This document shows positions 3,440-34,288 of a stretch of 42,530 nt of DNA, in pieces. Under the pieces are notes generated by a model. It ran no database searches. It was not told the DNA's origin and saw only the letters and a program-made list of their open reading frames with translations. The translations under genes were made by a program, and so were the position numbers. The DNA comes from Limimonas halophila. GTDB taxonomy: Bacteria > Pseudomonadota > Alphaproteobacteria > Kiloniellales > Rhodovibrionaceae. The first letter of the stretch is position 1, and the number at the start of each line of letters is the position of its first letter. The DNA lies in the NCBI RefSeq assembly GCF_900100655.1, contig NZ_FNCE01000014.1:1-42530 (forward strand), in the 5' to 3' direction.

Positions 3440-4768
3440 ATGAACGGGCGACCGGACCCCAGCCACCAGGTCGGCTGCACGGAACTCAACGCGGCGGAAC
3501 TCAAGCGCATCCTCCGCTCGCACCAGGCGTTCGTGAACCGCAAGCCCGGCGGGCAGCGGGCGATGCTGCAGTTCCACGACCTGAGCAACCTGGACCTCTC
3601 GGGCTACGATCTCTCCGAGGCCGACCTGACCGGCGCCGTCCTGCGCCGCTCGCGCCTGGACGACGTGCAGCTGCGCGGCGCCAACCTCTTCGGCGCCGAC
3701 CTGCGCATGACGCGCCTGCACCGCGCCAACCTGACGCGGGCCGACCTGCGCGGCGCCTCGCTGCGCGGCGCGGACATGACGGACGCCGTGGTCTACGACG
3801 CCGACATCCGCGAGGCGCAGCTCGCCCACTACGACGAGGCCGGCAACCCCCAGACCACGGAGTTCGAGGCCCTGCCCGCCGAGCTGTCGTCGATCACCGC
3901 GCGCGGCGCCGACTTTTCGCGCGCGCAGATGGGTCAGGCGATGGCGCTGAAGACGGACTTTTCCGACGCGCGGCTGTGCAACGCCAACTTCCGCAACGCC
4001 GACCTGCGCCGGTCCATCCTGGTGGGCGCGGCGATGGAGGGCGCGGACCTGTCCAGCGCCAACCTGGGCGAGTGCAAGCTCACGGGCGCGGTGCTCACCG
4101 ACGCCGACATCCGCGGCGCCAAGTTCCAGAACGCGGACATCCGCGGCGCCATTCTTGACGACGACGCCGGCGACGCGCCCGAGTTCTTCGACGCGGTGAA
4201 GCCGGCGACGTCGGCCGAGCTGGTCCAGCGCATCGACCGCATGCTCAACGACCACGCCGCCTGGGTGAGCACCTCCTCGCGCGAGGGCGAACGCGCGGAC
4301 CTTTCCGACGCGGATCTTCGGGGCTTCCGCAAGCCGGGCGTCAACCTGGCCGCGGCGGTGATGGAGCGCATCGTGCTCAAGAACGCGGTGCTGATCGCCG
4401 CGGAGCTGCCCATGGCGCAGCTGGCGTTCGCCGACCTGCGCGGCGCGCACCTGGCGCAGGCCAATCTGCGCGGCGCCGACCTGCAGCGGGCCGTGCTGCG
4501 CGGGGCGGACCTGCGGGAAGCGCGCCTGGGACCGGTGCGCAACGTCGGCCGCGACCAGCACACCTGCCCGGCCAACCTGGCCCACGCCAAGCTGGCGGAG
4601 TGCACCCTGGCCGGGGCGGACCTGAACGAGGCCTGCCTCTTCGGCGCCGACCTCTCGGACAGCGACCTGACGGGCGCCCAGCTTACCCGCGCCGACCTGC
4701 GCCAAGCCAACCTGACCCGCGCCCAGGTGGACAAGGGCAGCCTGCGCAAGGCCTACCGGGATCGGTGA
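3440..4768 (+). CDS. Pentapeptide-repeat protein, 442 aa
   Basis: Three blocks of A(D/N)LxG/x pentapeptides (roughly residues 40-115, 155-235 and 285-430) predict a right-handed quadrilateral beta-helix, a fold used for protein contacts and, in some families, DNA mimicry. Two non-repeat segments interrupt it: residues about 115-155 with an acidic linker, and about 235-285 (DAVKPATSAELVQRIDRMLN) that looks helical. An N-terminal 40-residue cap (ELKRILRSHQAFVNRKPGGQ) is not repetitive. No signal peptide or membrane segment is seen. The start at 3440 is uncertain: a weak site precedes it, and ATGs at 3401/3404 are possible. It follows the PilZ gene on the same strand. Function unknown. Confidence 0.85.
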   Translation: MNGRPDPSHQVGCTELNAAELKRILRSHQAFVNRKPGGQRAMLQFHDLSNLDLSGYDLSEADLTGAVLRRSRLDDVQLRGANLFGADLRMTRLHRANLTRADLRGASLRGADMTDAVVYDADIREAQLAHYDEAGNPQTTEFEALPAELSSITARGADFSRAQMGQAMALKTDFSDARLCNANFRNADLRRSILVGAAMEGADLSSANLGECKLTGAVLTDADIRGAKFQNADIRGAILDDDAGDAPEFFDAVKPATSAELVQRIDRMLNDHAAWVSTSSREGERADLSDADLRGFRKPGVNLAAAVMERIVLKNAVLIAAELPMAQLAFADLRGAHLAQANLRGADLQRAVLRGADLREARLGPVRNVGRDQHTCPANLAHAKLAECTLAGADLNEACLFGADLSDSDLTGAQLTRADLRQANLTRAQVDKGSLRKAYRDR

Positions 4769-4810: not shown

Positions 4811-4990
4811 TTATCCCGCCTCGGCCACGCGATCGTCGCAAACGCCAACCTCGATCCGCGCGCCGAGTTCCGCGAAGGCGGCATCAAGGTGATCCAGGCG
4901 CGAGGCGTGGTTGAGGTCGAGCAGACGGTCGACCTGCGGCCGATGCCAGTGCAGCCGCCGCGCGAGCGCCCAGCAGACGGGGTCAAGCTG
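4811..4990 (-). pseudogene. Start-less coding-like fragment after cobB
   Basis: On the minus strand, in the +1 frame relative to cobB, an open frame runs through the end of cobB to a TAA at 4811-4813. It reads like protein (QLDPVCWALARRLHWHRPQV, then DRLLDLNHASRLDHLDAAFA) and its third codon positions are strongly GC-rich as in neighbouring genes. I find no ATG, GTG or TTG in this frame near its start, so it cannot be a normal independent gene. It may be the tail of a decayed gene or a chance high-GC frame. The WALARRLHWHRPQVDRLLDLN part faintly recalls small phage tail-assembly proteins; this is a weak impression. A 14-base palindrome GCGGCCGCGGCCGC lies at 4773-4786. Confidence 0.3.
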
Positions 4991-5699
4991 CCAACAGCTT
5001 GTCGACGTAGGCGGGGACCACCTCGGTCGCGGGGCCGTGGTGGTGGTCGTGGAAGGCGCTGGATGCGTCGGATGGTTCGAGGTTGAGTTCGACGCAGTGG
5101 GCGCCGGCGCCGAAGCGGGCCTGCTGCACGAAGCCGGCGGCGGGCTGAACCGCGCCCGAGGTGCCGACGGCGAGGAAGTGGCTGCAGGTGTCGAGCGCGG
5201 CGAAGATGCGCTCCAGCTCCAGCGGCATCTCGCCGAACCACACGACCTGGGGGCGCATGCCGCCGGCTTCGCCGCAACTCGGGCAGGCGGTGGCCGTGTC
5301 CATGTCCGCGCGCCAGTCGTGAACCGCGCGGCAGTGCAGGCACAGCGCCTTCAGGATCTCGCCGTGCATGTGGATCAGGTTCTGCTGCCCGGCGCGGTCG
5401 TGCAGGTCGTCGATGTTCTGGGTGACGACCAGGACCTCGCCTGGCCACTCGCGCTCCAGGCGCACCAGCGCGTCGTGCGCGGCGTTGGGCCGCACGTCGC
5501 CGGTCAAGAGCTGGCGCCGCCGGTCGTTGTAGAAGCGGTGGACGAAGTCGGGCTGGCGGCGGAAGGCGTCGGGCGTCGCCACGTCCTCCAGCGACACCCG
5601 GGACCAGATCCCGCCTTCGTCGCGGAAGGTGTCGAGGCCGGACTCCTTCGAGATCCCGGCGCCCGTCAGCACAACGATGGGTCCTGCATCTTTCGACAT
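4983..5699 (-). CDS. cobB: NAD-dependent protein deacylase (sirtuin, CobB-type)
   Basis: A 238-aa class III sirtuin that removes acyl groups from protein lysines with NAD+. Motifs in order: GAGISKESG (residues 13-21, NAD loop), TQNIDDLH (93-100), catalytic His in HMHGE (112), two zinc-binding pairs CLHC (120/123) and CPSC (139/142), GEMPL (156-160) and a GTSGAVQPAAGF segment. Tyr57 and Arg60 in FYNDRRR match the Tyr-x-x-Arg pair that lets CobB/SIRT5-type enzymes accept succinyl- and malonyl-lysine, so desuccinylase activity is likely. The start at 5699 gives the usual family length. It is divergent, over 69 bases, from the tyrosine phosphatase gene. Confidence 0.93.
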   Translation of the reverse strand: MSKDAGPIVVLTGAGISKESGLDTFRDEGGIWSRVSLEDVATPDAFRRQPDFVHRFYNDRRRQLLTGDVRPNAAHDALVRLEREWPGEVLVVTQNIDDLHDRAGQQNLIHMHGEILKALCLHCRAVHDWRADMDTATACPSCGEAGGMRPQVVWFGEMPLELERIFAALDTCSHFLAVGTSGAVQPAAGFVQQARFGAGAHCVELNLEPSDASSAFHDHHHGPATEVVPAYVDKLLAA

Positions 5700-21594: not shown

Positions 21595-21678
21595 GGCACC
21601 TTCCCCAAGATAGCCCCAAACACCGCGTTCCTCGGGCGTCCGTCGGCCTGACAAACGCGATTAAACACGCCGTGTTTA
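21595..21678 (-). repeat. Stop-codon-anchored element R2, copy A
   Basis: Read on the minus strand, this 84-base copy begins with the TAA stop of the DUF484 gene (21678-21676), which is part of a TAAACAC-GGC-GTGTTTA hairpin, and continues downstream through TGTCAG, ACGGACGCC and ATCTTGGGGAA to end in GTGCC. Copies B and C have the same order and nearly the same length (86 and 85 bases) and also begin at a gene's stop codon. The terminal hairpin could serve as a transcription terminator for both converging genes. Confidence 0.75.
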
Positions 21679-22434
21679 TTGGGGCGCGGGCAGGTCGAGC
21701 CACAGGCGGATGGTGCGTTCCAGCGCGCGGGCGAGGAAGGAGAGCAGGTCGCCGCCCTGGCCGGGCTCGAATTGATCGGGCGCGCGCGAGCCGAGCGCGA
21801 GCAGCGCCGGCGGCGTGGCGTCGGAGATGTGCAGGCGCAGCAGCGCGGCGGAGCGCACGAGCCCCGCGGCCTCGCCGAACAGCTCGGGCTCGCCGATGAC
21901 GTCGGCGAGGAAGACGCACTGCCGCTGGCCGCCCAGGAAGGCCTCGACCGTGCCGGGCTGAAGCTGGTGCACCCCGCGCAACCGGCTGGGCACGCCGCCG
22001 TCGTGGGGCTGCTCGACGCAGATGGTGATGGCGTCGAGGTCGAGGATGACGAGCAGGTCGGTGGCGACGGTTTCGATCAGGTGCTCGAAGCTGCGCGCGG
22101 CGAGCAGCGTGAGCATGGCCTGATGCACCCGCGCCTGGGCGTTCATGTTGATGCGCGAGGTGTGCACGAGGTCGTCGCGGCTCTCGCGCAGGCGCGTGAT
22201 CTCGCCGCGCAGACGGTCCATCATGAACTGCTGGAGATCGACGACCCCCTCGCCGTGGTCGCGCGCGGGCGCCTCCAGCACGTCCAGCAGGTCGGGGTGG
22301 CGGGCCAGGAAGTCGGGGTGGCGGCGCAGGTAGTCGGCAACGGCCGTGTCGGTCAGCGTCGTGTCGCCGCCGGCCGCCGGCTCGTTCGCGCCCGGATCGC
22401 TGGCGGGCGGATCGTTGCGCTTGCCGTTGGTCAT
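21676..22434 (-). CDS. DUF484 family protein
   Basis: A 252-aa protein of the DUF484 family (GAF-like fold). The N-terminal part has [20 protein letters not shown] followed by a coiled segment ([20 protein letters not shown]) and a C-terminal GAF-like domain ending [16 protein letters not shown]. In many proteobacteria it is found near xerC and tal/fsa-like genes; here it directly follows the transaldolase-like gene with a 4-base ATGA overlap (22431-22434). Residues 1-28 are low-complexity and acidic. The stop codon lies inside the first hairpin of R2 copy A. Molecular function is not established. Confidence 0.9.
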
Positions 22435-30687: not shown

Positions 30688-31641
30688 ATGGCCGACAGTC
30701 AGGTTTCCACGGACGACGCCGTTCAGGCCCAGGCCCAGCCGCAGGACATGCCCCGCGGCAACAAGGACGGGCGCCCCACCGGCAAGTATGATCAGCGCCA
30801 GACCTCCCTGGTGTCGATCGAACGCCACTGGGACATGGAGACGGACATTCCGTGGAGCCAGTTCGACCCGTCCCAGGTCGATCCGGAAATCCTCAAGATC
30901 GCCAAGGCCGCCAGCCTCGTCGAATACAACGCGCGCGACTACGCCACCTACCTCTGCAACGTCTTCCACGACGATCCCGACTTCCAGGAGGACGCCAAGG
31001 CCTGGGCGTACGAAGAAGTCCAGCACGGGGAATCGCTGGGTCGCTGGTGCGAGTACGCCGACCCCAACTGGGACCACAACGAGCACTTCTATCGCTTCGT
31101 CGAGGGCTTCCGCCCCGACATTACCGCCACGGAATCCATCCGCGGCAGCCGCTCCGGCGAGATGGTCGCCCGCTGCATGGTGGAGATCGGCACGTCCTCC
31201 TACTACGGCTCGCTGGGCACCGCCACCGACGAGCCCGTGCTCAAGGAAATCTGCAAGCGCATCTGTGCCGACGAGCTGCGGCACTACAAGATGTTCTACT
31301 CCCACATGAAGCGCTATCTGGAAAGCGAGCACCCCTCCAAGTGGTCGCGCTTCCGCATCGCGCTCGGCCGCGCCGTCGAAACCGAGGACGACGAGTTGTC
31401 CTACGCCTACTACGCGGCGAACGCCCCCTACGACGCCGAATACAGCCGCACCACCTACAACCAGGCCTACATGCGCCGGGCGTTCACCTACTATCAGCCC
31501 AAGCAGATCGAACGCGCCGTCTCCATGACCTGGAAGGCCAGCGGCTTCAACCCGCAGTCCAAGATCTCCGACGCCGCCGCCTGGCTCGCCTGGCAGTTCG
31601 TCTGCCACCGCGCCCGCAGCCTCGCCCGCAAAGGCGCCTGA
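30688..31641 (+). CDS. Ferritin-like diiron protein, acyl-ACP-desaturase-like
   Basis: A 317-aa four-helix diiron protein. The ligand pattern is E79 (SLVEYNARDY), EExxH at 109-113 (YEEVQHGE), E166 (MVEIGTSSYY) and DExxH at 195-199 (ADELRHYKMF), the two-repeat arrangement of ferritin-like and acyl-ACP desaturase proteins. It may desaturate or oxygenate an acyl carrier substrate, or be a peroxide/iron protein; I cannot choose between them from sequence. The first 30 residues are Gln- and Asp-rich. The start at 30688 is preceded by GTGAGGCGG; an ATG at 30652 is in frame but less likely. Its stop TGA is inside the first palindrome of R2 copy B. Confidence 0.83.
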   Translation: MADSQVSTDDAVQAQAQPQDMPRGNKDGRPTGKYDQRQTSLVSIERHWDMETDIPWSQFDPSQVDPEILKIAKAASLVEYNARDYATYLCNVFHDDPDFQEDAKAWAYEEVQHGESLGRWCEYADPNWDHNEHFYRFVEGFRPDITATESIRGSRSGEMVARCMVEIGTSSYYGSLGTATDEPVLKEICKRICADELRHYKMFYSHMKRYLESEHPSKWSRFRIALGRAVETEDDELSYAYYAANAPYDAEYSRTTYNQAYMRRAFTYYQPKQIERAVSMTWKASGFNPQSKISDAAAWLAWQFVCHRARSLARKGA

Positions 31642-31724
31642 AACACGCGCGTGTTTCATCGCATCTGTCAGTCAGACGGACGCCTTCCAAGCGAGATTAT
31701 CGGGGCTGTCTTGGGAAAAGTGCC
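31639..31724 (+). repeat. Stop-codon-anchored element R2, copy B
   Basis: This 86-base copy begins with the TGA stop of the ferritin-like gene. Its first 20 bases (31639-31658) are a perfect palindrome, TGAAACACGC/GCGTGTTTCA. The rest reads TGTCAG, ACGGACGCCTTCCAAGCG, GGGGCTGTCTTGGG and ends GTGCC, in the same order as copies A and C. TTCCAAG and CTTGGGAA near its end can pair. A gene-free 410-base stretch (31642-32051) holds this copy, R1 copy 2 and R2 copy C, plus a partial sequence resembling the R2 beginning at 31875-31900. Confidence 0.78.
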
Positions 31725-31733
31725 GGTAAACAT

Positions 31734-31872
31734 TAGAGCAGATCGCCGTAAAGCAGAATCACCTGCGTGATTCTGCTTGCTCGTGCGTGAATCTGCTCGC
31801 ACAGGAAAGACGGGGACCTATCGTGAGGTTTCCGGCTTTATCGGCAAACGCGATTTCACGCACGATGCTCTA
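31734..31872. repeat. Dispersed palindromic element R1, copy 2 (shortest)
   Basis: A 139-base copy with both ends intact (TAGAGCAGATCG at left, CGATGCTCTA at right). The main stem AAGCAGAATCAC (31751-31762) pairs with GTGATTCTGCTT (31767-31778) over 12 bases with a 4-base loop CTGC, so the inner hairpin of copies 1 and 3 is absent. Just outside, TAAACAT (left) and ATGTTTA (right) extend the symmetry. It sits between R2 copies B and C, which face each other. Confidence 0.85.
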
Positions 31873-31969
31873 GGATGTTTAATCCCATCTGTCATTCGAC
31901 ACCGGCGTCGCGCGGCCACTGAATGGGTCTCTCACGACCAATCGTGCGAACTCATTTTGTGTTGAGACT

Positions 31970-32054
31970 GGCACATTCCCCAAGATTTCCGCGACCTCTC
32001 GCTTGGAAGGCGTCCGTTGGACTGACAGTCGTTTCCAAAGATCATTTTTGGTTA
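31970..32054 (-). repeat. Stop-codon-anchored element R2, copy C
   Basis: Read on the minus strand this 85-base copy begins with the TAA stop of the MFS gene (32054-32052). Here the initial hairpin is CCAAA/TTTGG instead of the AAACAC/GTGTTT type, but the core (TGTCAGTCCAACGGACGCC, TTCCAAGCGAGA, ATCTTGGGGAA) and the GTGCC end are shared with copies A and B. The conserved core combined with a changed first hairpin suggests the core is the element and the hairpin can be exchanged. Confidence 0.72.
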
Positions 32055-33401
32055 AACATCCTCATGTTTGTTGAGGGCGTCGCGGATGCGGTTTTGTTCG
32101 GCGGCATCGATGGGGTAGCCGCGGACGATGGCGATGGCGGCCAGCTTGATGAAGACGGGAAACAGCGCGTAGAGGCCGGCGAGGGTCCACAGCGCGGGCT
32201 CGGTTTGCGCGGCGGCTTCGCGCTGGAAGCCGACGAGGTCGAGCGCGGGAAAGGCGATGCCGACCGCGAGCGCCAGCGGCACCTTGGTCGCCACGCCCCA
32301 GGCGGCGAAGAAGAGGCCCGCGCGCCGGCGACCGGAGCGCAGGGTGTCGTAGTCCACCACGTCCGCCTGCATCGACGGCGGCAGGGCCAGTTCCCCGCCC
32401 AGCGGCACGCCGGTCAGCACGCAAACGAGGACGAACCAGCCGACCTGCCCGGCGTCCAACAGCGCCGCGGGCCAGAAGCCGGCCGCCGCCATCGCCATGG
32501 CGGCCATCCAGGCGCGGTGCTTGCCGATGCGCCGGCTGAGCCACAGCCATCCCGGCACGGCCGCCACGGCGCAGGCGAAGTAGAGCCCCAGCAGCGGCCA
32601 CGCCCACGCCTGCGCGCGCAGCACGTGCTCCACGTAGAGCAGGAAGAGCGTCGCGGGCAGGCCGTAGGCGACGCCGTTGATGAAGTAGGCGCCGATCAGC
32701 TGGCGGAAGGGGCCGTTCGTCCACACCAGCTTGAGCGCGCGCCCCGGCGCGACCGCATGGCTCGCCGCCGGCCCGATGGGCCGGTCGGGCAGGCCCCACA
32801 CCGCCAGCCCCACGGCCAGCGGCAGCAGCACCGTCAGCCCCAGGGCCGTGCCGGTCATCACGTCGGGCCGGGCCAGGCCGAGCAGCGCCGGAATCCCCAG
32901 CGCCAGCAGCGTGCCCACGAGTTGCGACACCTCCCGAACGGCGGCGATCCGCGAGCGCTCGTGGTGGTGGGGGGACAGCTCGGCGGCCCAGGCCGTGTAG
33001 GGGACCATGATCATCGTGCCGCCAAGGTAGAGCAGGACCGTCCAGATCAGCAGGTGCGGCCAGCCCACCCCGGCCGCCGGCGCGAACAGCTGCCACGCCG
33101 CGAGCACCAGGATGGGAACACCCGCCACCATCCACGGCCGCCGGCGGCCGAAGGCGTTCGGCGAGCGGTCGGAGAGAACGCCGATCAGAGGGTCGCTCGC
33201 CACGTCCCACAGGCGCACGAGGAAGAGAACCGTGCCCACGGCGGCGAAGCCCACGCCCAGGTCGTCTGCATAGTAGGTGGGCAGCGTGACGTAGAGCGGC
33301 AGCAGCAGCACCGCCAGCGGAATGCCCGGCCCGGCGTAGGCGAGCAGCTGCCACGGCCGGAGCAGCCGCCGCGTTTCGTCCATCGCGGCAGGTCCGGTCA
33401 C
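32052..33401 (-). CDS. MFS transporter, GPH (glycoside-pentoside-hexuronide) type
   Basis: A 449-aa inner-membrane carrier with about 12 hydrophobic segments. The loop between helices 2 and 3 carries DPLIGVLSDRSPNAFGRRRP, the GPH-type DxxxGxxxDRxxxxxGRRRP signature, and LPTYYADDLG and VPYTAWAAEL are also characteristic. Family members import sugars or related organic solutes with H+ or Na+. It starts with GTG at 33401 overlapping the DUF6134 stop (GTGA), so translation is coupled; an ATG at 33383 is an alternative. Its stop begins R2 copy C. Confidence 0.9.
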   Translation of the reverse strand: MTGPAAMDETRRLLRPWQLLAYAGPGIPLAVLLLPLYVTLPTYYADDLGVGFAAVGTVLFLVRLWDVASDPLIGVLSDRSPNAFGRRRPWMVAGVPILVLAAWQLFAPAAGVGWPHLLIWTVLLYLGGTMIMVPYTAWAAELSPHHHERSRIAAVREVSQLVGTLLALGIPALLGLARPDVMTGTALGLTVLLPLAVGLAVWGLPDRPIGPAASHAVAPGRALKLVWTNGPFRQLIGAYFINGVAYGLPATLFLLYVEHVLRAQAWAWPLLGLYFACAVAAVPGWLWLSRRIGKHRAWMAAMAMAAAGFWPAALLDAGQVGWFVLVCVLTGVPLGGELALPPSMQADVVDYDTLRSGRRRAGLFFAAWGVATKVPLALAVGIAFPALDLVGFQREAAAQTEPALWTLAGLYALFPVFIKLAAIAIVRGYPIDAAEQNRIRDALNKHEDV

Positions 33402-34116: not shown

Positions 34117-34288
34117 CAGAGCAGATCGCCGTAAAACGGAACCAGCTTTTTCCGCTCGCCCACGCCGCCGTGGCCATCCCGGCGTGGTTCCGTTTGCTCG
34201 TGCGCAAATCTGCTCGCACGGAAAAAGCAGGACCTTATCCCGAAGCTTTCCGTTCGATCGTCGAACATGATCTCACGCACGATGCTCG
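34117..34288. repeat. Dispersed palindromic element R1, copy 3
   Basis: This copy of about 172 bases has AAACGGAACCA (34134-34144) paired with TGGTTCCGTTT (34185-34195). Compared with copies 1 and 2 the arms differ at three positions and all three pairs are kept (G-C to A-T, A-T to G-C, T-A to C-G). The CACGCCG/CGGCGTG inner hairpin of copy 1 is present with identical sequence. The right end is slightly eroded (GATGCTCGA). It occupies most of the 318-base divergent gap 34103-34420; its left end touches the ribosome site of the DUF6134 gene. I see no gene in the rest of this gap (34289-34420). Confidence 0.82.

Follow-up and report, generated by a model that had tools for sequence, protein, structure and literature searches.

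A REP-like modular repeat family with hairpins at stop codons in the genome of Limimonas halophila

A modular, REP-like repeat family is present in the genome of Limimonas halophila and, among the genomes searched, in no other. Its units stand alone or in tandem arrays, for the most part in the same orientation as the upstream gene, and the first hairpin overlaps the native stop codon or follows it immediately. The window analysed here is the whole stretch of 42,530 nucleotides, which is one complete contig (NZ_FNCE01000014.1, called C14) of a 3.04-Mb genome in 26 contigs. The stop-codon repeat reported in the initial annotation is real, and the family is larger than was reported there. The favoured reading, with a probability of about one half, is a lineage-specific REP-like element whose hairpin has been retained as an mRNA 3'-end element, in which case the hairpin probably marks or protects the mRNA end. 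Both the function and the mobility of the element are what we infer from the arrangement of the sequence.

Three copies had been described in the window, and on re-reading the sequence their coordinates, orientation, block order and phasing with stop codons were borne out in all three. Copies A, B, and C are each in the sense orientation of the upstream gene, whose stop codon is within the hairpin or directly precedes it. Copy A (21595-21678, minus strand) consists of the hairpin TAAACAC-ggc-GTGTTTA (21678-21662) and a body of type M1, at an offset of -2 (first stem base versus last stop base, here and below). The stop TAA (21678-21676) of the gene at 21676-22434 (minus strand) makes up the first three bases of its hairpin on that strand. 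Copy B (31639-31724, plus strand) has the hairpin TGAAACAC-gcgc-GTGTTTCA (31639-31658), followed by ATCGC and an M1 body, at an offset of -1, and the stop TGA (31639-31641) of the gene at 30688-31641 (plus strand) falls within its stem. Copy C (31970-32051, minus strand) carries a different hairpin type, CCAAAAATGATCTTTGG (32051-32035), whose stem is imperfect and which is followed by AAAC and an M1 body; the imperfect stem leaves this copy outside the array count given below. Its hairpin is directly 3' of the stop TAA (32054-32052) of the gene at 32052-33383 (minus strand). Just upstream of copy C, an extra hairpin AAACATGAGGATGTTT (32054-32069, minus strand) is translated as the C-terminal residues KHEDV of the preceding protein, and its last T starts the stop codon. 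Copies B and C point towards each other, between two convergent genes.

A fourth unit, absent from the copies listed in the initial annotation, follows copy B at 31727-31939 (plus strand) and is interrupted. Its left arm TAAACAT (31727-31733) is separated from its right arm ATGTTTA (31875-31881), which is followed by ATCCC and a body of type M3 up to 31939; the M3 model matches at 31877-31941. When the flanks are joined, they read TAAACAT-TAGG-ATGTTTA-ATCCC, a perfect member of the family. The interruption in the loop is a 135-bp palindromic element, GAGCAG...ATGCTC (31736-31870), which lies between two TA dinucleotides and does not itself belong to the family. This second palindromic element, AGAGCAGATCGCC ... 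CACGATGCTC, occurs three times in the window, at about 126-331, 31736-31870 and about 34118-34288, the copies differing in length; the middle one, with TA at either end, has the look of a clean insertion that duplicated TA. A lone hairpin, CAAGCTG-ttgg-CAGCTTG, followed by ACCCC (4984-5001, minus strand), is a tentative member of the family. It obeys the hairpin rules, has no recognisable body, and contains in its 3' foot the stop TGA (4985-4983) of the gene at 4983-5672 (minus strand).

Each unit of the family has three parts. The first is a 7-bp hairpin of the form N-AAAC-XY / Y'X'-GTTT-N' with a loop of 3-5 bases, the second is ATC followed by a dinucleotide complementary to the final two bases of the loop, and the third is a sequence-conserved body of ~55 bp (types M1 and M3, and a differing type M2). 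The 59 copies with seven perfect pairs, a set selected for perfect stems, contain 27 distinct stems. The chance that two of these copies share a base along the left arm is 0.29, 0.78, 1.0, 0.97, 0.93, 0.40, and 0.29, so that AAAC is mostly conserved, whereas the outer pair and the two inner ones vary almost freely and still match. An unselected raw alignment of 29 copies, in which 83.9% of stem cells pair, gives a covariation score of 0.441 against a shuffled mean of 0.130, and none of 500 shuffles reached it. The complementarity of loop and tail is found in 61 of 64 copies (GG/CC 30, GC/GC 29, AC/GT 1, and GT/AC 1), a set in which two copies are the same DNA read twice at the shared ends of contigs C7 and C22. 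These are 64 of 68 stems, the other four being two of the CCAAAGA type and two misfits; another 20 matches, whose stems were shorter than 6 bp, had been set aside before the test. Counted as single pairs, 123 of 128 match; 20,000 permutations average 89 and reach at most 105, none being as high. The stem AAACAC is combined with GC/GC in 14 copies, GG/CC in 5, and GT/AC in 1, and since one stem occurs with several loop-tail pairs, the inheritance of two subfamilies is not enough to account for them. A second hairpin type, CCAA-XY-A-TGA-..., carries the same bodies and also varies by matched changes (AG/CT, GG/CC, GA/TC, and GT/AC, collected with a loose pattern that includes false matches).

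Two considerations weigh against the mRNA-end reading at this point. Perfect seven-base stems can also persist through palindrome-correcting mutation, a process that would explain the loop-tail pair less readily than the stem, and the 2-bp loop-tail pair is too weak for stability on its own. The mismatches favour neither RNA nor single-stranded DNA as the paired form, as the two sets disagree: G-T occurs 7 times and A-C 2 times in the main stem set, against 3 and 12 times, respectively, in a loosely collected second set.

The bodies seem to have a different history from the hairpins. The M3 body, GTCAYTCGACACCGGCGT ... GATGAATGGGTCTCTCACGACC, is homologous to M1 by eye, and the unit at C5:125739 looks like an M1/M3 hybrid; M2 has the hairpin in common with the other types and the tail GTACGNGGTTCTGAGCGG. 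Across 31 copies, the similarity of the hairpins is unrelated to that of the bodies (Mantel r 0.05, p 0.19), and the units at C3:77096 and C3:77251 have bodies that are 95% alike, yet their stems, loops, and tails differ. The hairpin thus seems to turn over as a unit and faster than the body. In arrays, the body is flanked by a hairpin on both sides, and inspection of the alignments revealed no inverted repeat joining the hairpin end and the body end, such as the terminal inverted repeats of MITEs. The BOX elements of pneumococcus likewise have a modular A-B-C build with a variable number of units, a likeness drawn from their general description and not from sequence, and we know of no stop-codon phasing in them.

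The conserved body sequence and the tandem arrays would suit a structured RNA gene, or an sRNA processed from mRNA 3' ends in which the body is the functional part. This is highly improbable, as no consensus fold is found across 40 bodies with RNAalifold, Rfam has 0 matches at the gathering score in the window, and six repeat-bearing loci give only two sub-threshold matches at E<=1. The raw whole-unit alignment gives RNAalifold three weak pairs only, because MAFFT misaligned loops that differ in length.

Copies of the family are numerous in the genome. With blastn, copy B has 37 matches at E<=10, including itself and two reverse-strand palindrome echoes, and copy A has 28 at E<=1, including itself and two likely chance matches. 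A covariance model built from 29 copies (R1) gives 48 matches at E<=0.001, its 29 source copies included, and 90 at E<=10; these counts come from the best 150 candidates scored and are therefore lower bounds. The M3 body type, which is related to M1, has 51 matches at E<=0.01. As contigs C7 and C22 share ends, the counts 48, 51, and 64 may each include a few duplicates. Examples of tandem arrays are those at C22:3017-3313, C1:397722-397990, and C5:34047-34290. The spread over the genome is uneven: C7 (162 kb) has many model matches, against none at E<=10 among the best 150 candidates on several contigs, including C2 (at least 429 kb) and C8. A tandem repeat array with a period of ~93 bp at C18:27171-27480 reaches the end of that contig, and C1 opens with the same unit (C1:1-85), so the assembly may have broken inside an array.

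Outside this genome the family is not found among the genomes searched. Blastn gives no match at E<=0.01 in 57 relatives, all of other genera, of which two belong to the same family and the others to the same order; the covariance model gives none at E<=0.001 in 13 of the 57. Plasmids have no match for copy B or for an M3 array, and phages none for the M3 array. A 21-base pattern scanned over genome contigs, possibly with the own genome excluded, matched once, in an Acidobacteria MAG where the rest of the element is absent. Three pattern scans of viral contigs gave 1, 0, and 1 matches, the first of which lay in unrelated sequence.

The position of the units relative to genes was obtained with gene ends from a codon-usage caller and hairpin units from a pattern script, run on 235 kb around the matches. 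The script, which required a perfect stem of at least 6 bp at the head of an array and so missed imperfect heads such as that of copy C, returned 96 units in 60 arrays. The upstream neighbour of 57 arrays is a same-strand gene end in 50 and a gene start in 7; one of these seven heads, C3:172, has TGA just before it and may follow a gene missed by the caller. In 42 of the 50 arrays that follow a same-strand gene end, the first hairpin begins between -18 and +1 from the last stop base. The offsets are +1 in 17 arrays, 0 in 2, -1 in 6, -2 in 6, -6 to -9 in 7, -17 or -18 in 4, +10 in 1, and +43 to +311 in 7, and none of the 50 lies at +2 to +9 and only one at +2 to +40. Four more stop-phased hairpins lie outside the 42 of 50 (C4:127347, C6:22108, C23:113, and C24:2340). 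The first of these turns the array counted at +67 into a second unit, and C7:27577 does likewise for the array at +72; if the imperfect heads that the script passed over, such as that of copy C, were counted, the phased fraction would be higher. The initial annotation had proposed a repeat phased with stop codons, as opposed to one randomly placed and oriented or mostly far from them, and with 50 of 57 and 42 of 50 the proposal is not refuted on this wider set.

The 42 phased arrays use 24 TAA, 14 TGA, and 4 TAG stops, whereas all 162 gene ends examined, the phased ones included, have 50 TAA, 92 TGA, and 20 TAG. The excess of TAA is partly explained by the ability of the hairpin to supply its own TAA. 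Hairpins at stops are no general feature of the genes of this genome, since 120 gene ends with no called element have a 7-bp hairpin at the stop in 6 and at a control position 25-44 bases downstream also in 6. By inspection, four of the six stop hairpins have family tails, one (in the window) obeys the hairpin rules only, and one shows neither. The genes beyond the elements are convergent in 19 cases and co-directional in 18, an orientation no different from that at other genes, and a preference for operon ends was not seen. Together with the seven array heads at gene starts and the lack of a conserved fold in the bodies, this counts against the mRNA-end reading.

Whether these stops are native was assessed by scanning 30 of the 37 proteins found to end at an element against NCBIfam, where many were uninformative as they had no close full-length profile. 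YchF (residue 365 of 365 at profile position 368 of 368), MutL (615 of 615 at 611 of 611), and RecR (199 of 199 at 196 of 196) reach the profile end, and LeuS, for which only the C-terminal part was available, reaches 841 of 843 with its last residue but one; in these four the element therefore lies at the true gene end. SdhB also reaches the profile end, and its element starts off the stop, at +10. Residues beyond the best profile number 5 in PurB, 9 in LeuC, 2 in TrpS, 11 in a lyso-ornithine acyltransferase-like protein, and 17 in a ligase-associated helicase-like protein. In relatives, YchF ends in FRFNV followed by the stop at 24 of 24 loci with a visible end, none of which has the element after it; two further loci stopped short of the gene end. 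PurB here ends in RVF-KHERV, with the last five residues encoded by the hairpin, and in 16 relatives with a visible end it stops 1-4 residues after RVF/RIF in 11 and is longer in 5. TrpS here ends in GFLN, with N and the stop inside the hairpin, and in 17 relatives it ends two residues after L in 13 and later in 4. From these comparisons, the hairpin is judged to sit on the native gene end or to replace the last few codons. Protein tails translated from the hairpin include KHERV, KHEDV, KHEGV, QTKLV, and the like, and hairpin-encoded tails are found at C5:50446 (PurB), C5:12128 (LeuC), C4:70204, C14:32052, C25:122, and C3:77115.

The favoured reading would account for this placement as follows. 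The family would have spread as non-autonomous DNA, and the extant copies would have been kept since the hairpin, placed where the open reading frame ends in the mRNA, acts post-transcriptionally. It would most likely block 3'-5' exonucleases and thereby set the mRNA 3' end beside the stop codon, and may also modulate termination or ribosome release. TAA, TGA, and TAG are all used in frame, which makes a fixed DNA target sequence hard to invoke, and random insertion followed by pruning would leave many copies 2-40 bases past stops, where one is seen. The near-absence of copies at +2 to +40 and the difficulty of a fixed target leave two readings, a hairpin that is useful only at the stop or addition that is directed to stops.

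Selfish mobile DNA that prefers gene ends and has no host function is possible though doubtful. A single-strand (HUH-like) or other enzyme, since lost or unrecognised, would insert the unit at or inside stop codons, and the loop-tail pairing would be a pair of guide and cleavage site as in IS200/IS605, where guide and target bases covary. Of the hairpins, 17 start before the stop codon, 8 inside it, and 17 immediately after it, as insertion there would produce, and the hairpin-encoded residues after RVF in PurB, the tandem copies, and the restriction to one genome among those searched point the same way. On the other side, all three stops are used in frame, the orientation is nearly fixed, and the Y1 tyrosine transposase family PF01797 (RAYT), the sole transposase family searched, has 0 matches at E<=0.001 in this genome, compared with matches in 5 of 14 control genomes. 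Reverse transcription was also considered as a means of movement and rejected, as the single RVT_1 match of the genome belongs to a group II intron, and the intron itself was rejected as the mover because it shares only chance matches of 15-19 bases with repeat segments. This intron lies at about 26.9-28.9 kb of C9, directly after an intrinsic terminator hairpin, a placement that we take to be that of group IIC introns.

Alternatively, the units may have been added at stops by a process that is perhaps linked to translation. Placement would then be coupled to translation termination, units would be added in frame at any stop, and the hairpin would be renewed independently of the body, with stem, loop, and tail renewed together as a paired cassette. 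This is unlikely; if true, the element would be a repeat that homes to the end of translation or a per-gene hairpin signal read with the terminating ribosome, and it would be unlike the REPs and MITEs described in the portion of the literature surveyed.

Under another proposal, the hairpins are weak bidirectional terminators (A-tract, stem, T-tract) that end transcription at the stop. The AAAC/GTTT stem does resemble a bidirectional terminator, and copies B and C are opposed between convergent genes. Just 3-4 T follow the stem before ATC, however, while canonical terminators with five or more T exist in the genome, for example at the group II intron site, and the last ribosome would be expected to melt a hairpin that overlaps the stop. 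An intrinsic terminator has a GC-rich stem and a T-run; here the stem core is AAAC/GTTT, followed by N'ATCSC, and the lack of a T-run after the hairpin makes ordinary intrinsic termination unlikely. Other terminators were found at 2 of 40 element-bearing genes and 4 of 68 other genes, and a scan with looser loops gave 1 of 37 (the element's own hairpin) and 6 of 68, one of these six, C24:2340, in fact carrying an element missed by the script. Terminators are about equally scarce in both groups and the numbers are few, so the data do not support their substitution by the element, and the proposal as a whole is quite unlikely.

The mRNA-end reading places the family next to several known systems. 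Among the titles and abstracts surveyed, which leave most subscription papers outside their scope, none describes a stop-codon-locked modular repeat of this kind. The GTAG and CGTC REP/BIME elements are short palindromes in high copy number that lie downstream of genes and are in many cases presumably transcribed; their families are species-restricted, and stems and loops vary within a family (Di Nocera et al. 2013, PMC3733652). The present family is similar in all of these traits except that 55-bp bodies are attached, loop and tail pair, and, as far as the cited sections go, the lock to all three stop codons in nearly always one orientation is its own. In the same sections, GTAG REP termini 'often provide' the TAG stop of the flanking ORF, and CGTC REPs have a CGTC (TGTC/CCTC) tag next to a stem of 8-9 bp whose first two pairs are AT (PMC3733652). 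In the 54-copy alignment, no GTAG tetranucleotide stands beside the hairpin, which has ATC-NN after it and, before it, either varying bases or a stop codon; the CGTC tag is also absent, and a 7-bp core with internal AAAC/GTTT is present instead. With no tag, the family falls outside both the GTAG and the CGTC superfamilies, and the search with PF01797 revealed no RAYT-type transposase, the other mark of GTAG REPs. It is a REP in the broad sense (a 20-40 bp palindrome, in high copy, intergenic, and downstream of genes), with a palindrome of ~17-20 bp at the low edge of the range.

E. coli REPs that lie no more than 15 nt from a stop are reported to stall ribosomes and to bring about mRNA decay via trans-translation (Liang, Rudd and Deutscher 2015, cited in PMC5082802), and other REPs block 3'-5' exonucleases (PMC5082802). 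These are the precedents for the two post-transcriptional roles suggested above. In the E. coli REPs near stops, as in the present family, the hairpin is beside the stop codon, and here most arrays start at the stop. In E. coli, mRNA secondary structure upstream of UAA stops has also been suggested to aid termination (PMC4619774); that structure is likewise near the stop, and in the parts of that source used here it lies upstream and belongs to no repeat family or common motif. The YPAL/RU-2 elements of Yersinia are small palindromic repeats as well, compared here by description and not by sequence. They resemble the present family in their termini without TA, in being described as co-translated with upstream genes, and in targets that span or adjoin dyad symmetry (PMC2229807). 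They measure ~168 bp, with target duplications of 3-26 bp, and a stop-codon lock is not described in the cited sections.

Dozens of genes with a stop-locked hairpin, which differ naturally in stem, loop, tail, stop type, and offset, offer a ready-made series for the study of mRNA ends, termination, and decay. That the hairpin changes fast and yet stays paired also raises a well-defined question about palindrome evolution. Elsewhere in the window, a gene at 3440-4768 contains long pentapeptide-like repeat runs with a 15-base period.
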